A stretch of 30,244 nt of DNA, taken from positions 1 through 30,244 of IMG/VR virus record IMGVR_UViG_3300031510_000740; one strand, written 5' to 3'. The notes beneath the pieces are model-generated. The model saw only the letters and a program-made list of their open reading frames with translations. It ran no database searches and was not told the DNA's origin. Source of the DNA: a virus. Every line of letters starts with the position of its first letter. Position 1 is the first letter of the stretch. A program made the translations under genes and the position numbers. This document shows positions 8,764 through 24,789 of this stretch, one piece after another.

Positions 8764-9069
8764 TTATGGAATTAGCGGGTCTAACTCGCCACCTTCATGC
8801 ATCTCGGTGATAATATCGCAACCACCAATCAGTTCACCTTTGATAAACAATTGTGGGAACGTGGGCCAATCACTGATGCTAGGTAGTGTAGCTCTGATGT
8901 CTTGGTCTGCTAAGATGTCAACAAATCCAAACGGCTTACCAATTTCTTTAAGTATGTTTACAACTTTAGCACTGAAACCACATTGAGGTTGATAAGGATC
9001 GCCTTTCATAAACAATATAACATCGTTGCCTTCGATAATTTCTCTAATTTGGTCTTCAGTGGTACTCAT
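8764..9069 (-). CDS. Monothiol glutaredoxin (Grx4/GrxD type)
   Basis: A 101-residue monothiol glutaredoxin. The active site is CGFS in the context FMKGDPYQPQCGFSAKVV, followed by WPTFPQLFIKGELIGGCDI, which carries the TFP cis-Pro loop and the GG glutathione-binding motif. This family carries or transfers [2Fe-2S] clusters with glutathione rather than reducing disulfides. In this phage it could support iron-sulfur proteins such as QueE. It overlaps the dithiol glutaredoxin gene upstream by one base (TAATG). Confidence 0.9.
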   Translation of the reverse strand: MSTTEDQIREIIEGNDVILFMKGDPYQPQCGFSAKVVNILKEIGKPFGFVDILADQDIRATLPSISDWPTFPQLFIKGELIGGCDIITEMHEGGELDPLIP

Positions 9070-9296
9070 TATACTATGTCCTTAAACTCTTGCCAGCCAC
9101 CGATAGCCTTACCATCTACTACGATTTGTGGGAATGTTCTTGCTGTGGGAAATTTCTCAAATAGTTCTTCTCGGCTGAAGTCTCTATCTAGTTTTTTGTA
9201 TGTGTACTGGTGATCGTTCTCTGTCATTTGTTCTGCTTTGTTTACTGCCATATCACAAAATGGGCAGTTATCTTTACCAAATATTTCTATAATCAT
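9069..9296 (-). CDS. Dithiol glutaredoxin
   Basis: A 75-residue glutaredoxin with the CPFC active site (FGKDNCPFCDMAV) and the TFPQIVVDGKAIGGWQEF cis-Pro and glutathione-binding region. It would reduce disulfides, most likely as an electron donor for ribonucleotide reductase, as T4 NrdC does. No reductase gene is in the window. The ribosome-binding site is AGGAAAC. The monothiol glutaredoxin gene follows directly, so the pair is probably one expression unit. Confidence 0.9.
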   Translation of the reverse strand: MIIEIFGKDNCPFCDMAVNKAEQMTENDHQYTYKKLDRDFSREELFEKFPTARTFPQIVVDGKAIGGWQEFKDIV

Positions 9297-13086: not shown

Positions 13087-14007
13087 TTATTTTCCTATTG
13101 CATTTCCATATATGTGTACATGAACTCTGCTTGTATAGTTGTAGCCACGTTGTATTGCTTCATCGGCTATGGTGGCTTCTGTTTGGATTAGCCCTTCGAA
13201 CGTTCCACCTACGCCCATAATCCACACAGGAAAATTACATCCTGCATCTCTAAATAATTTAGTATTCTCTTCTACTTCTCTCCAACTCTCTTCAGAGCCA
13301 TTTACTACGAACTTTAGTTGTCCGTGATTACTAACTTCTGCATACTTGCCTACTATCTCTGGGCATATTGCTTTACTATGTTTCTCTCCAGCAGTACTCC
13401 ATAACTTAGGACTTACACTCCAGAACCACTCTGGCGTACCTAATGCGTCTGGAATAATTCCACCGTACTCGTCTGTAGCATAAAATCTTTTATCTATAAA
13501 CTCTTCTAAGTCTGGTGTTACTGCTCTAGTACCATTTGTTTCTACTGTAACGTGAGTGTTGTTCATCTTACGTTTAGCAAACTCTTCTAACACACTAATC
13601 ATACCAGGTTGCGACTTCTTAATCATAGGCTCGCCTCCTGTAAATACCATGTGTGTTCTGTTTAGTGTTACAGGATGTATAAAGTTACCGTGCGGTAGGT
13701 GAGCCTGTAGTTCGTCTACAGCCTCCTCTACCGTCTTATCGGCAATAAGGTGCTTGAAGCGTTTGCTCCAAGTGTAACTACTGTCACAACCCTTATCAAA
13801 AACTGGCAAATCAAACACGTTGTCGATGTTTGTTAAATCAATTGTTTCGTACGGTAACTCATAGGTGCTAGGGTCAGTTGGATCTGTTTGTCCAAAGCCA
13901 TTGCACTGAAGATTACACAAGAAGAATCGCATCCATAAACTAGGAATGCCTACATAGGAGCCTTCGCCTTGGGCTGAGTAAAACGTTTCACTGTATTTTA
14001 GAGTCAT
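13087..14007 (-). CDS. queE: 7-carboxy-7-deazaguanine synthase (QueE-like radical SAM)
   Basis: A 306-residue radical-SAM enzyme that would convert 6-carboxytetrahydropterin to 7-carboxy-7-deazaguanine. QueE hallmarks are present in order: FYSAQGEGSYVGIPSLWMRF (10-29), CNLQC (31-35), CDSSYTW (74-80), FTGGEP, TVETNGT, SVSPKLWS and LKFVVNG. The usual CxxxCxxC cluster motif is split: Cys31 and Cys35 are in place, but the third Cys appears as Cys74 after a 38-residue insertion, directly before the SSYTW that normally follows it. It overlaps the upstream gene by 20 bases and lies in one run with FolE. Confidence 0.88.
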   Translation of the reverse strand: MTLKYSETFYSAQGEGSYVGIPSLWMRFFLCNLQCNGFGQTDPTDPSTYELPYETIDLTNIDNVFDLPVFDKGCDSSYTWSKRFKHLIADKTVEEAVDELQAHLPHGNFIHPVTLNRTHMVFTGGEPMIKKSQPGMISVLEEFAKRKMNNTHVTVETNGTRAVTPDLEEFIDKRFYATDEYGGIIPDALGTPEWFWSVSPKLWSTAGEKHSKAICPEIVGKYAEVSNHGQLKFVVNGSEESWREVEENTKLFRDAGCNFPVWIMGVGGTFEGLIQTEATIADEAIQRGYNYTSRVHVHIYGNAIGK

Positions 14008-14532: not shown

Positions 14533-15222
14533 TTAACCTCTACCATTAGCAAACGACTGCTGTAGTTTAATATTATCCATAAACTCTTGTTGTACCTTTG
14601 CTTCTTCTTTGAAAGAACCTTTAAGTACTGTAGTCTGTGTAAGACTACTATGTGCCATAATGCCTCTATTCTCACAACAACCGTGTGTGGCTTGTATATA
14701 AACGCCTACGTCATTACTACCAGTGGCTTCCATAATCTCTCTAGCAATGTCGTTACATAGTTCTTCTTGTAACGTTCCACGTCTTGCACACCATTGTGCA
14801 ATCCTTGTGTACTTGCTTAGACCAATTAGTGTGTCAGCGGCAATGATACCAATGTATGCTACGCCTGTTACTGGCTGGTGATGATGTGAGCAAACACTTT
14901 TAAGTTCGCTACGCACAACCAACATGCCTTCGTATCTATCTTCTGTTACATTAGGAAACGCTGTTGCATTAGGCATAGGTTCGTACCTACCTGCCATTAG
15001 TTCTTTGATATACATTTTAGCAAGACGTCTACCAGTTTCCATACTGTTAGGATCGTTTTCAATATCAATAACTAGACTCTCTAGTACTGATTCAAACTTA
15101 GGTGTAAGCTCTTCGATAAGTGCTTGTTTGTCGCCTTCTTCCATGTACTCACTAATGTTACTACCAGCCCAAAACTTGCCGCCGGCTTGTAAGATACGTT
15201 GTTTTATTGTATCACTAATCAT
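14533..15222 (-). CDS. folE: GTP cyclohydrolase I (FolE)
   Basis: A 229-residue FolE that opens GTP to 7,8-dihydroneopterin triphosphate, the first step of both folate and 7-deazaguanine synthesis. The catalytic region is clear: VCSHHHQPVTGVAYIGI supplies the zinc Cys and His residues, GLSKYTRIAQWCARRGTLQE is the family's signature, and ATHGCCENRGI supplies the second zinc Cys. The length is near the bacterial norm (about 220). It overlaps an upstream small gene by eight bases. With QueE and DpdA in the same phage, the product is more likely for DNA modification than folate. Confidence 0.93.
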   Translation of the reverse strand: MISDTIKQRILQAGGKFWAGSNISEYMEEGDKQALIEELTPKFESVLESLVIDIENDPNSMETGRRLAKMYIKELMAGRYEPMPNATAFPNVTEDRYEGMLVVRSELKSVCSHHHQPVTGVAYIGIIAADTLIGLSKYTRIAQWCARRGTLQEELCNDIAREIMEATGSNDVGVYIQATHGCCENRGIMAHSSLTQTTVLKGSFKEEAKVQQEFMDNIKLQQSFANGRG

Positions 15223-16462: not shown

Positions 16463-17449
16463 TTATAAATTATGTTTACGTTTCAGCTTTGGCTTCTGCC
16501 AAGCCAGTTCATCAACAATGATATCGTTGATTGTTTTTGTAGGCTCCCAACCCAAGTTGTCCTTAGCAAATGTTACATCTGCATAAGTCTTAACCATGTC
16601 GCCTGATCGTGGAGCAACTAAATTGGTGTTAATGTCTTCGCCTAGTTCAGTTTCTACTGCTTTAATTAGCTCTAGTACACTAACTGGTGTGCTGTTACCT
16701 AAGTTGTATGTGTTGTTAATACCATTATCAAACATTTGATGTAGTGCTAAAAGGAAACCTCTAGCAATATCGTTGATGTGAGTATAGTCTCTTAAACATG
16801 TTCCATCTGGTGTGTCATAGTCGTCACCACATATATCAAACACTTCGTTTGTTAATGCCTTCTCTACTATGATAGGTAGTACATGTACATACGGAGTCTT
16901 TTGATATCCGTTCTTGCCTGCATTACTTCCAGCTACGTTAAACAATCTTAGAATGCTGTAGTTCATATCATAAACATCACAGTAGTCTTTAATTATTTGT
17001 TCACATATCTGCTTTGTTCTTCCATATGGATTGATTGGAAACATTGGGTCTGTTTCTTTATAGGACCCGTCTTCATGAATGCTGTGTCCATATACACTAC
17101 TGCTTGATGCAAACATAAAGTTCTTTACGCCAGCTTCAACACATACGTTTAGTAAACTAATAGTCTGCTCTACGTTGTCGTGATATGTATCCTTAGGATT
17201 AATTACACTGTTAGGTACGCTGTTGTTTGCCGCAATATGGATAACACATTCAGGCTGAATAATATCTATTACACCTTTAACTTGTTTTGTATTAATCTCG
17301 AACGGATACTGGACTACGCCTGGTATATCACGTTTACGTCTATCAATATTAAATACATTATATCCACTAGCAACTAGCAGTTCGCAGACATTACTGCCTA
17401 TAAATCCACTGCCACCTGTTACTACAATTGCTTTCTCATCATTATTCAT
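16463..17449 (-). CDS. NAD-dependent UDP-sugar epimerase (GalE-like)
   Basis: A short-chain-dehydrogenase-fold sugar-nucleotide epimerase of 328 residues. VVTGGSGFIGSN near the N-terminus is the NAD-binding GxxGxxG. FASSSSVYG and YGRTKQICE give the catalytic Ser/Thr and the YxxxK pair. LRLFNVAGSNAGKNG and the later HINDIARG and NLGNSTPVSVLEL are typical GalE positions. The frame is open to 17497, but the ATG at 17449 has a strong AAGGAG ribosome-binding site and does not overlap the upstream gene. It is probably a UDP-glucose/UDP-GlcNAc 4-epimerase supplying sugars to the adjacent glycosyltransferase. Confidence 0.88.
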   Translation of the reverse strand: MNNDEKAIVVTGGSGFIGSNVCELLVASGYNVFNIDRRKRDIPGVVQYPFEINTKQVKGVIDIIQPECVIHIAANNSVPNSVINPKDTYHDNVEQTISLLNVCVEAGVKNFMFASSSSVYGHSIHEDGSYKETDPMFPINPYGRTKQICEQIIKDYCDVYDMNYSILRLFNVAGSNAGKNGYQKTPYVHVLPIIVEKALTNEVFDICGDDYDTPDGTCLRDYTHINDIARGFLLALHQMFDNGINNTYNLGNSTPVSVLELIKAVETELGEDINTNLVAPRSGDMVKTYADVTFAKDNLGWEPTKTINDIIVDELAWQKPKLKRKHNL

Positions 17450-17462
17450 TGCTATCTCCTTC

Positions 17463-18662
17463 TTATTCCGTTTCTGAGCGATCGAAACCGCCATCACTTC
17501 TTAAACTCGCACTAAGCGGGTCTAGTAAAACTTGCTCTCTCCTTGAAAGACCCTTAGATTGATTAACTTCAGCGTACTCAAGTTCTAACTTTTGATCTCT
17601 TCTTGAAAGGCCCTTACTATCGCCAATTACTTCATACAATGCTTTACCACTGAAGAAGTCGTTTTTTAACTGTTCTGCTAACTGTTCGTTATCGTCTGAC
17701 ATAAGCCAATTAAATGCTAACATGCCTCGAATCTTATCAATCAACTTGTCCTTGTGCGTTAAGTAACTATCCCAACTCTCTGTCCATTCGCTTGGGTACT
17801 TAAACTTGTCATCATACATTTCTGTATAACTTAATCTGTCCGGGACCAATGGTGTCGCACCAACCAATGCTCCTTCAAAGCAACTGATACCTAATGTTTC
17901 TTGTGTGTTAGCACTGAACACTATCTTACTACGCATGAGTAAACTATGATACTCATCCTTACTAAGGTTTTGTTCTTGTGCAACTATAAAGTCTACATCT
18001 TCAAATGCTTCGCCTAAATCTTTAAATATCTCCACTTGCTTTTCAGGTGCTACCCTGTGTGGAAATAATACTATATCGTTTTTACTTGTAGGTATATTGT
18101 ACTCAGCAAGTAAATGCTCCAAGTACTCCATGGGCCATCCCACCCTGTGAATCTTATTAGTATCCACATTCGGGAATGACTGCATGAATAAGTCGATATG
18201 GAAATCTGTAGCAAAGAAGTTATGATCAAATACATTGAACATACTTTCTTCCGCAAGCCTTACCCAAGGCGCATCACCAATTAGTCTACCTAAAAAGTCC
18301 GCTGGGTCATAAGATCCTGCATGCCACATGCCACCAATTTTAACTTTAACACCTAATAACTCTGACATATATTTTAGTTGTAACACAGTTGGATTCCAAG
18401 CATCAGTATAGAGGAAGTAATCTCCATCTTGTACTGTACCATCCGCAAACATTTGACTAATAGTCTTTAACTGTTCGCTCTTCCAATAGTTAGTTCCGCT
18501 AAAGTTTAAGAATGCCCCAGGAGTTGTATCCTGCGGTGCATCACTCGGCCCTTGTATAACTTTAACTTCCAGTCCTGAGTCTTTCATTTGCCTAGGCAAC
18601 CACGTCTTCCACTGAGCGGTGTAGCGTGTTTCAACAGGTTCTAGCTCAACAATATAAATCAT
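17463..18662 (-). CDS. Glycosyltransferase, GT-B type, with repeat tail
   Basis: A 399-residue protein. The core, residues about 1-340, looks like a GT-B glycosyltransferase: the donor half has VLFPHRVAPEKQVEIF, and SANTQETLGISCFEGALVG carries the E-x7-E motif of retaining group 1 enzymes. The last 55 residues are different, containing SKGLSRRDQ and SKGLSRREQ 20 residues apart and a polar end (SLRSDGGFDRSETE). The DNA shows the same duplication at 17533-17560 and 17593-17620. With GalE directly downstream it may decorate phage DNA, virion or host glycans; the acceptor is unknown. Confidence 0.8.
   Translation of the reverse strand: MIYIVELEPVETRYTAQWKTWLPRQMKDSGLEVKVIQGPSDAPQDTTPGAFLNFSGTNYWKSEQLKTISQMFADGTVQDGDYFLYTDAWNPTVLQLKYMSELLGVKVKIGGMWHAGSYDPADFLGRLIGDAPWVRLAEESMFNVFDHNFFATDFHIDLFMQSFPNVDTNKIHRVGWPMEYLEHLLAEYNIPTSKNDIVLFPHRVAPEKQVEIFKDLGEAFEDVDFIVAQEQNLSKDEYHSLLMRSKIVFSANTQETLGISCFEGALVGATPLVPDRLSYTEMYDDKFKYPSEWTESWDSYLTHKDKLIDKIRGMLAFNWLMSDDNEQLAEQLKNDFFSGKALYEVIGDSKGLSRRDQKLELEYAEVNQSKGLSRREQVLLDPLSASLRSDGGFDRSETE
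17533..17620 (-). repeat. Two direct repeats, 60-base period, in glycosyltransferase tail
   Basis: The 28-base segments at 17533-17560 and 17593-17620 match at most positions and are offset by exactly 60 bases (20 codons), encoding SKGLSRREQ and SKGLSRRDQ. The differences include synonymous ones, so the duplication is older than the one at 5571-5630. Confidence 0.75.
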
Positions 18663-18863: not shown

Positions 18864-19334
18864 TTAATCATCAAGTCCCTTAACATAAGTTGCTTGACTG
18901 TCGTCCTTATAAGGGTTACCACCCTCATACCAACTACCCTCAGCTCTATCCGTTACCGGAACATCACTGTATGGATAATCTATCTCGCACCCGTTTTCAT
19001 TATCTTCGGCTACTGAAATCTTTATATCACGATTAGGATACTTTACTTGTATCTCTGTCGCTAATTCATCTGCAATCATTTCGCATGACTTAAAGTCCAG
19101 TTGTATAACGTCTCCGCTATACAACCTTTCTAGCCAGCGTTTAAACTGTATAAATTCAATGTCTCTATCGTTATGGAATATTTCTATCCAAACTCTAAAG
19201 TAAAAAGTATGTCTGTGAGGATAACCTAGAAAAGATACATCGTCCCAACCGCCAGTAGCGAGTTTAGGATCCGTGTCTGCTCCAGGATACTTGTGAATTC
19301 CTTCCTTCGTAAATGTTACCCAAATACTTCTCAT
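18864..19334 (-). CDS. QueD/PTPS-like protein, degenerate active site
   Basis: A 156-residue protein that looks like a 6-carboxytetrahydropterin synthase. TFTKEGIHKYPG gives a His in place of the first zinc ligand, and GYPHRHTFYFRVWIEI gives an HxH in place of HGH. SCEMIADELATEI matches the helix before the last strand, and ISVAEDNENGCEI matches the catalytic Glu and following GC. The nucleophilic Cys normally a few residues before HGH is not seen, nor is the LDHxxLN His. It may catalyse the QueD step in another way or have a new role. The ATG at 19334 with AAGGAA is chosen over a preceding TTG. Confidence 0.65.
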   Translation of the reverse strand: MRSIWVTFTKEGIHKYPGADTDPKLATGGWDDVSFLGYPHRHTFYFRVWIEIFHNDRDIEFIQFKRWLERLYSGDVIQLDFKSCEMIADELATEIQVKYPNRDIKISVAEDNENGCEIDYPYSDVPVTDRAEGSWYEGGNPYKDDSQATYVKGLDD

Positions 19335-19343
19335 CAATATTCC

Positions 19344-23253: not shown

Positions 23254-24789
23254 CTATAACTCCGCCGCCAAGTTTGTTAGTGAGTCTTCCATCATTTGAT
23301 CAAACTCTCCTTCTACTTGTTGCTCTACTTCTTCATCGAAGAAAGAACTAGTAGGTGAGGAGTTGAATGCCGTGTCTGCATCTTTGTGTTTGTTATTACT
23401 AACATCATCTAAGAACAGTTTAGCATCGTCTAATAGTTTGTGAGGATCATCACTAGTGAATAGTTCTTTAACAAATGTATCAAACATCAACATATTTCTA
23501 GGCGTGTATAAACTTTCTTGATTAAGTTTCTTACCTTTCTTCTGCCAGTTTCTCCAATCTAGTTGGTAGTTCTCGCATTCTAATGTTGCTAGGCTGTTTG
23601 CTTCTTGTACTGCTCTAATATGCATGTATACATTGTGTGACATCAGTAAGCCGTATGTGAAACTATCCCATGAAGTCTTACCTTCCTTGTGGATCTTGTT
23701 CAGCATACCCGGAGCATACCAATTAACATCACCAGTAACTAGTCTGCTACCAATCTCACTCTCCCAAGGGAAAGGATTGTTAGACAAGTTGCCAGGTGAG
23801 TGATGACTAAATGCTTTGTTATCAAAACACTTCTCCATAATGTAACTCATCTGATTACTAGTAACTTTGTTTCTTGTGTATACTAAACCGTTTGCACTAC
23901 TAATGTATGGACTAGCACAATCAAAACTAACTGTGATGTTAGGGTTAACATGTTCTCTTAACTGTCGCTGTATGCTTGTAAGCATTACACCCCATTCAAG
24001 TTTACTAGTACCCAAGAAGTGAATCCAATCTCTGTCTTGTAACTTCTCATCATCACGCAAAGTAATGATACGTTTCAGTGCCATGTGCATGTCGCGGATA
24101 TTGTTACCACCCATGCCCCAACCTTCTGTGTCGTAGTCTTTTACCTTCTGATACCATTCTTCAGCATCGTCCCAGTATGTTCCTTGTAATACATTAAGGA
24201 ACTTTGTGTTGCCTTGTCTGTGATCCATAAACCAATCTAGGTTGTATGCAGTACACTTCAAGCATTCGTCGAAGTTCTGTAGTCCAGTCTTCTCTTTAAA
24301 GCCAGGCTTACATGCCCAACTCGGAACATCAAATGTCATACTCCAGTCTGCTGTGTGTTCTAACCAGTTGAGGATCTTACCTCTAACTCTATCAGCATCA
24401 CCTTTGTATCCAACATCACCAGGCTTCTCGAAGAAGTTTTCCCAGTCAAACTTAATAACACCTTTACCAATCTGGAAACCACCGGAGTCGCCTACAATAG
24501 TTGTGTTAGTTCTGTCTCTGTTTTGTATAATGTGTTCCATTACCTTACTCTTCTCTATGTCCAAGTAAGCATGACCGGCACTATAAAGTGCTTTGTTATA
24601 ATAGTAGTAGCCTTTCTCTTTATCCAGGAAGTTCATGCCTTCGAAGCCATGCTCAAATCCATTCGGGACTCTGCCTTCAGGGATATATCCAGGCACACTC
24701 TTACATCTGCCTAACAACTCTGTCATAAAGCCGCTTACCGCAGGTAAAAATGTTGCATAGTCACTATGCGTCTTGGATAAATCTCTCAT
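23254..24789 (-). CDS. dpdA: DNA 7-deazaguanine transglycosylase (DpdA-like)
   Basis: A 511-residue TGT-like enzyme, very probably phage DpdA, which swaps guanine in DNA for a 7-deazaguanine base. DSGGFQ (101-106) carries the Asp for substrate binding, FDVPSW is at about 153-158, LQGTYW and GWGMGG (223-228) line the pocket, and SFDCASPYISSANG (289-301) matches the tRNA enzyme's FDCVMPTRNARNG with Asp290 as nucleophile. The C-terminal zinc motif of bacterial TGT (CxCxxC) is not seen; the last 60 residues are acidic and low in complexity. Length and loss of the zinc site separate it from queuine tRNA-ribosyltransferase. It follows the sliding clamp gene by two bases, so it is made with replication proteins. 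Confidence 0.88.
   Translation of the reverse strand: MRDLSKTHSDYATFLPAVSGFMTELLGRCKSVPGYIPEGRVPNGFEHGFEGMNFLDKEKGYYYYNKALYSAGHAYLDIEKSKVMEHIIQNRDRTNTTIVGDSGGFQIGKGVIKFDWENFFEKPGDVGYKGDADRVRGKILNWLEHTADWSMTFDVPSWACKPGFKEKTGLQNFDECLKCTAYNLDWFMDHRQGNTKFLNVLQGTYWDDAEEWYQKVKDYDTEGWGMGGNNIRDMHMALKRIITLRDDEKLQDRDWIHFLGTSKLEWGVMLTSIQRQLREHVNPNITVSFDCASPYISSANGLVYTRNKVTSNQMSYIMEKCFDNKAFSHHSPGNLSNNPFPWESEIGSRLVTGDVNWYAPGMLNKIHKEGKTSWDSFTYGLLMSHNVYMHIRAVQEANSLATLECENYQLDWRNWQKKGKKLNQESLYTPRNMLMFDTFVKELFTSDDPHKLLDDAKLFLDDVSNNKHKDADTAFNSSPTSSFFDEEVEQQVEGEFDQMMEDSLTNLAAEL

Follow-up and report, generated by a model that had tools for sequence, protein, structure and literature searches.

The window, by which we mean the whole stretch of 30,244 nucleotides of marine phage DNA that was analyzed, contains a minus-strand open reading frame (positions 13087-14007) for a QueE-like radical SAM protein of 306 amino acids. 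The assignment is based on the phrog_2076 family, on a profile search against PDB, and on an AF2 model compared by Foldseek. An earlier note on this DNA had described the gene as a QueE with the split cysteine motif CX3CX38C, and a codon-by-codon reading bore out the reading frame, its coordinates and the motif. The predicted first and second cluster cysteines, C31 (codon TGT, 13915-13917, minus strand) and C35 (TGC, 13903-13905), were identified from their codons and from alignments and are separated by NLQ; the +3 position is occupied by phenylalanine, as the note had claimed (F38, TTT, 13894-13896). The predicted third cluster cysteine, C74 (TGT, 13786-13788), opens the motif CDSSYTW (residues 74-80, 13768-13788) in the context GCDSSYTW, and this segment aligns with ordinary QueE. 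Thus three radical SAM cluster cysteines are present, the third being displaced by an insert, and the spacing is CX3CX38C instead of the canonical CX3CX2C. The interval between Cys2 and Cys3 (residues 36-73, 13789-13902, minus strand), which we characterized by conservation, pN/pS and pLDDT, comprises 38 amino acids versus two in ordinary QueE. Further downstream in the same gene, residues 123-127 (13627-13641) form the S-adenosylmethionine-binding motif of radical SAM proteins, TGGEP, which is near-invariant in the alignments.

Two other genes on the minus strand of the window could be connected with 7-deazaguanine metabolism. The first encodes FolE, GTP cyclohydrolase I (14533-15222; Pfam PF01227, E 1.4e-39). 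The second encodes a protein of 511 amino acids (23254-24789) that is recognized by neither Pfam nor PHROGs, and for which sequence-profile searches against PDB returned nothing, the comparison of folds alone giving matches. Its AF2 model (pLDDT 85.8) retrieved 31 Foldseek matches at E<=0.001, all of them tRNA-guanine transglycosylases (TGT) or QTRT subunits (best 7.6e-9). Two aspartates, D101 (in DSGGFQ) and D290, are invariant in its relatives and occupy what we take to be the places of the TGT catalytic aspartates. Based on the model, the Foldseek matches and these aspartates, we predict a TGT-fold, DpdA-like base-exchange enzyme. The DpdA2 protein of Vibrio phage nt-1 was considered as its homologue and rejected (hhalign probability 0.8%), so that the window protein would at best represent a subfamily separate from nt-1 DpdA2.

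A third gene on the same strand encodes a protein of 157 amino acids from phrog_17812 (18864-19337), which occurs together with the TGT-like gene and with FolE. Among the 90 viral loci that were fetched for the TGT-like protein, some of which overlap, 38 contain FolE, the 157-aa protein, QueE and the TGT-like gene together. The 157-aa protein is strongly conserved, with HxHxF and SCE motifs, and may possibly have a QueD-like fold. Its identification as QueD was nevertheless rejected as unproven, because it has no Pfam match at 0.001, its profile match to QueD is weak and short (35 columns), only one of 15 relatives gave a (marginal) PTPS match, and true PTPS is encoded by a separate gene in a relative whose record spans 340 kb. 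The phage gene run also includes an NAD-dependent sugar epimerase/dehydratase (16463-17497, minus strand; Pfam Epimerase, 8.7e-53).

The QueE-like protein matches the ‘QueE-like radical SAM domain’ family phrog_2076 with an E-value of 4.9e-50. The NCBIfam QueE models match it just in the pieces that flank the insert, and its best score (36 bits) lies far below the equivalog cut-off of 240. This shortfall is not decisive, since an ordinary cellular CX3CX2C protein (L206) is likewise under the NCBIfam QueE cut-offs. A profile of 56 sequences (A2, in which 55 viral relatives join the window protein) retrieved three solved QueE structures from PDB, namely 6nhl (3e-8), 4njg (5e-8) and 5tgs (1e-5). 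The AF2 model of the protein has a pLDDT of 90.0 and a pTM of 0.89; by blocks of ten residues, pLDDT is 87-94 for residues 31-70 and lower (70) for residues 71-80. The best PDB matches of this model in Foldseek were again 6nhl (3e-9) and 4njg (4e-7), both QueE and both with probability 1.00, and its best viral structural match was an annotated phage QueE (TM 0.86-0.88). The best isolate among the matches listed is 42.5% identical to the window protein. The phages of phrog_2076, including KVP40, nt-1, Moby and PA5oct, carry proteins of the same family, and the long-insert isolates that were examined keep CX3CX(27-42)C. The window protein is thus a typical member, in which nothing essential differs.

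Conservation of the cysteines was assessed in three alignments. Every sequence in the first alignment (101 rows) and in the second, a diverse one (76 rows), has C31, C35 and C74, and these residues are among the 27 invariant columns of an alignment of 11 rows (the window protein and ten phage isolates, 29-45% identity); because of this invariance, the motif is not a product of chance. Relatives do not conserve the remaining two cysteines, C215 and C257. The QGEG, R27 and TGGEP motifs are intact in relatives, and the ETN motif is kept as well. Escherichia coli QueE uses Q13, E15, R27, C31, C35 and C38 (PMC11142719); the first three, which are its substrate residues, are invariant or nearly so in the phage proteins and have the same numbers there. 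The insert begins with CxGFGQ, which contains the F38 that is invariant within the clade, and finishes with LPVxxxG. Its information content is close to that of the core (2.96 vs 2.88 bits per column), and summing over 20 pairs gives it a pN/pS of 0.125, against 0.119 for the flanking codons. Judged by these sequence comparisons, the insert is translated protein under constraint and subject to strong purifying selection.

The relation of C74 to the third cysteine of ordinary QueE was addressed by profile-profile alignment. Against 23 ordinary CX3CX2C proteins, hhalign gave an E-value of 2.4e-54 over 224 columns with a gap of 36 columns, which falls between C35 and C74 and places C74 on the canonical Cys3, the CDxxYTW motif being common to both sides; CDSSYTW of the window protein is aligned to CDTxYTW of ordinary QueE. 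Similarly, the match to Bacillus subtilis QueE (5tgs) ends after Cys2 and restarts at CDSAFTW. Since the gap lies between C35 and C74, C74 is by alignment the homologue of ordinary Cys3. The fold, the substrate and SAM motifs, the Cys1-Cys2 spacing and the CDSxYTW motif are shared with ordinary QueE (E. coli 6nhl, B. subtilis 5tgs), from which the window protein differs in having 36 more residues to separate Cys2 from Cys3. As the third cysteine is the same as in these relatives, the protein is best regarded as a variant of a known enzyme and not as a broken one.

We compared the Cys2-Cys3 spacing across QueE proteins from phages and cells and found values of 2, 4, 6, 9, 11-13, 16-18, 23, 27, 30, 34 and 37-42, which on these sequences form a continuum. 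Cellular QueE proteins mostly have a spacing of 2, with 4, 6, 9, 11, 12, 13 and 16-18 in various bacteria. Among phages, the spacing is 6 in Cellulophaga phage phi47:1, 17 in Campylobacter phage WX1 and 23 in HCTV-1, and further phages have 27, 30, 34 or 37-42. The QueE proteins of Campylobacterota, CX3CX(12-18)C, are extended at the same place and share the CxGF start with the clade of the window protein; however, their insert is shorter and lacks the LPV segment, and the proteins form a separate clade in the trees.

Three bacterial proteins (L426, L425 and L175, with spacings of 30, 30 and 4, respectively) were informative with respect to the history of the insert. In a tree built with the insert excised from every row, these three form a clade (100/99) that is nested in the clade of long-insert phage proteins (100/99), and L175 was likewise placed inside the latter clade by an earlier tree that retained the insert. 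Since the nesting holds even with the insert excised, the loop must have shrunk while Cys3 stayed: compared with the phage clade, the insert of the three proteins is shortened or nearly lost, and Cys3 is kept. All three genes adjoin QueD, and one of them belongs to a cassette of TGT-like, QueD, QueE, FolE and QueC genes that has a serine recombinase. The L175 gene (L175:5537-6729) comes from an alphaproteobacterial MAG whose sole full-length QueE is of the phage type, CX3CX4C, with the insert almost lost; a QueD-type gene adjoins it and QueC is found elsewhere in the genome. Contigs assigned to three other MAGs, from Rickettsiales (L172), Rhodobacteraceae (L173) and Flavobacterium (L174), have a QueE with a spacing of 38, and each of these genomes has a second QueE-like match elsewhere; the contigs are probably binned phage contigs.

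The profile-profile alignment, the B. subtilis match, the spacing series and the bacterial loop shrinkage all support the earlier proposal of an insertion inside the cluster loop with the third ligand residue kept. The accompanying statement that the third cysteine sits in a new place is accurate for its position in the sequence; the residue itself is the homologous Cys3.

Taken together, we consider it very probable that the window gene encodes a working phage CDG synthase, QueE, that has a cluster bound by C31, C35 and C74 and a role in a DNA-modification pathway, and that belongs to a clade in which Cys2 and Cys3 are separated by a conserved inserted loop of some 36 residues. In the proposed mechanism, the [4Fe-4S] cluster would be bound jointly by the three cysteines, with the CxGF stretch leading away and the LPVxxxG stretch leading back in, such that C74 would come to lie where Cys3 sits in ordinary QueE. 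The phage 7-deazaguanine pathway would consist of FolE, QueD and QueE, with the product of QueD being ring-contracted to CDG by QueE (7-carboxy-7-deazaguanine synthase), and insertion of the base into DNA would be the task of the window's TGT/DpdA-like protein. Because FolE and the TGT-fold protein are encoded in the same window, the most likely role of the QueE is to supply CDG for 7-deazaguanine modification of DNA.

A comparable combination of genes was observed in a bacterial contig (L430), where a serine recombinase gene is followed by a homologue of the TGT-like protein (hhalign E 1.8e-51 against the window protein), QueD, QueE (CX3CX30C), FolE and QueC. This set is a 7-deazaguanine cassette. 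A HAD-like gene belongs to the same run (L430:3915-13118), which looks like a mobile DNA-modification island.

Evidence on the products of the pathway comes from the modified DNA of related phages, the Vibrio phages nt-1 and 6E35.1a. In both, the split-motif protein is the sole full-length QueE, other QueE matches being partial and in frames of other lengths, and both genomes contain QueC; the nt-1 gene run includes a QueD-type gene, FolE, DpdA2 and QueC. The DNA of nt-1 contains dPreQ0 and related bases (PMC6884629), and the DNA of 6E351A, which we take to be the record 6E35.1a, is modified at 15%, consistent with dPreQ1 (PMC12028318). The modified DNA of these phages argues that the split-motif QueE works. 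Vibrio hosts carry queuosine genes of their own, and for this reason the modified DNA is not strict proof of the activity of the phage enzyme. QueC is absent or gives a weak match in most of the large records from close relatives, and searches of PA5oct, Ahp1 and Bakedbeans did not find it, so the end product in such phages is uncertain; they may use CDG itself or the QueC of the host.

The scarcity of strong QueC matches among these large-genome relatives, together with the remodelled cluster loop, would fit an alternative in which the long-insert proteins bind the cluster but catalyze another deazaguanine-processing step instead of CDG synthesis. We regard this as improbable, given that the substrate motifs are conserved, that the genes occur near QueD and FolE, and that such a protein is the sole full-length QueE both in a bacterium and in phages that also encode the remainder of the preQ0 pathway, QueC included. 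More improbable still is a different role for C74, with the cluster held by C31, C35 and some other ligand, or lost altogether in a pseudo-enzyme. The clade-wide invariance of phenylalanine at the +3 position could be taken in its favor; against it stand the alignment of C74 with canonical Cys3, the lack of any other conserved cysteine, the strong purifying selection, and the bacterial relative with a spacing of 4, which has the same cysteine almost at the canonical place. To the suggestion that the 36 extra codons are outside the protein, either through translational bypass (as in T4 gene 60, where a short stretch is skipped during translation) or as an intein-like element or an assembly error, we give practically no credence: the insert keeps the reading frame, its amino acid sequence is conserved between independent contigs and between phage isolates, it is far too short for an intein, and bypass or artefact was rejected on the pN/pS of 0.125, which is like that of the flanks (0.119).

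Counting against the working QueE that we propose, no biochemistry on long-insert QueE was found in the literature. With regard to the function of the loop, variation around the cluster of QueE is tied to the flavodoxin partner in the title of a paper on the E. coli QueE structure that PMC11142719 cites. As a guess, the loop may shape the docking of an electron donor or shield the cluster. The more specific idea that it is a functional add-on, for example for docking a phage electron donor or the TGT/DpdA-like partner, is tentative and on balance doubtful; if true, the phage QueE would be freed from the host flavodoxin during infection. The natural series of spacings 38, 30 and 4 offers ready-made constructs for asking about the role of the loop. 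Two adjacent minus-strand frames of the window (8764-9069 and 9069-9296) are glutaredoxin-like by eye and are possible redox partners in the phage.

Neither the phrog_2076 family nor an extended cluster loop in QueE is new. QueE of Burkholderia multivorans (4njg) is a proven QueE with the motif CX14CX2C, and the accepted spacings of radical SAM members include CX14CX2C and CX5CX2C (PMC4389238). In 4njg, however, the extension is located between Cys1 and Cys2, whereas in the window protein it is located between Cys2 and Cys3. Among the open-access papers searched, we found none that describes a QueE with residues inserted between Cys2 and Cys3, and an earlier mention elsewhere is possible. The cluster loop of a radical SAM enzyme can thus take up 0 to 40 additional residues after Cys2 and still keep Cys3, and therefore searches with the CX3CX2C motif will overlook such enzymes or label them wrongly; among these phage genes, many continue to be annotated as ‘hypothetical protein’. 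The finding further draws attention to a family of TGT-fold proteins in marine phages that lacks annotation. Homologues of the TGT-like protein are widespread in viral contigs, and those of PA5oct, Phosso and Vibrio phage 2.275.O are listed as ‘hypothetical protein’.
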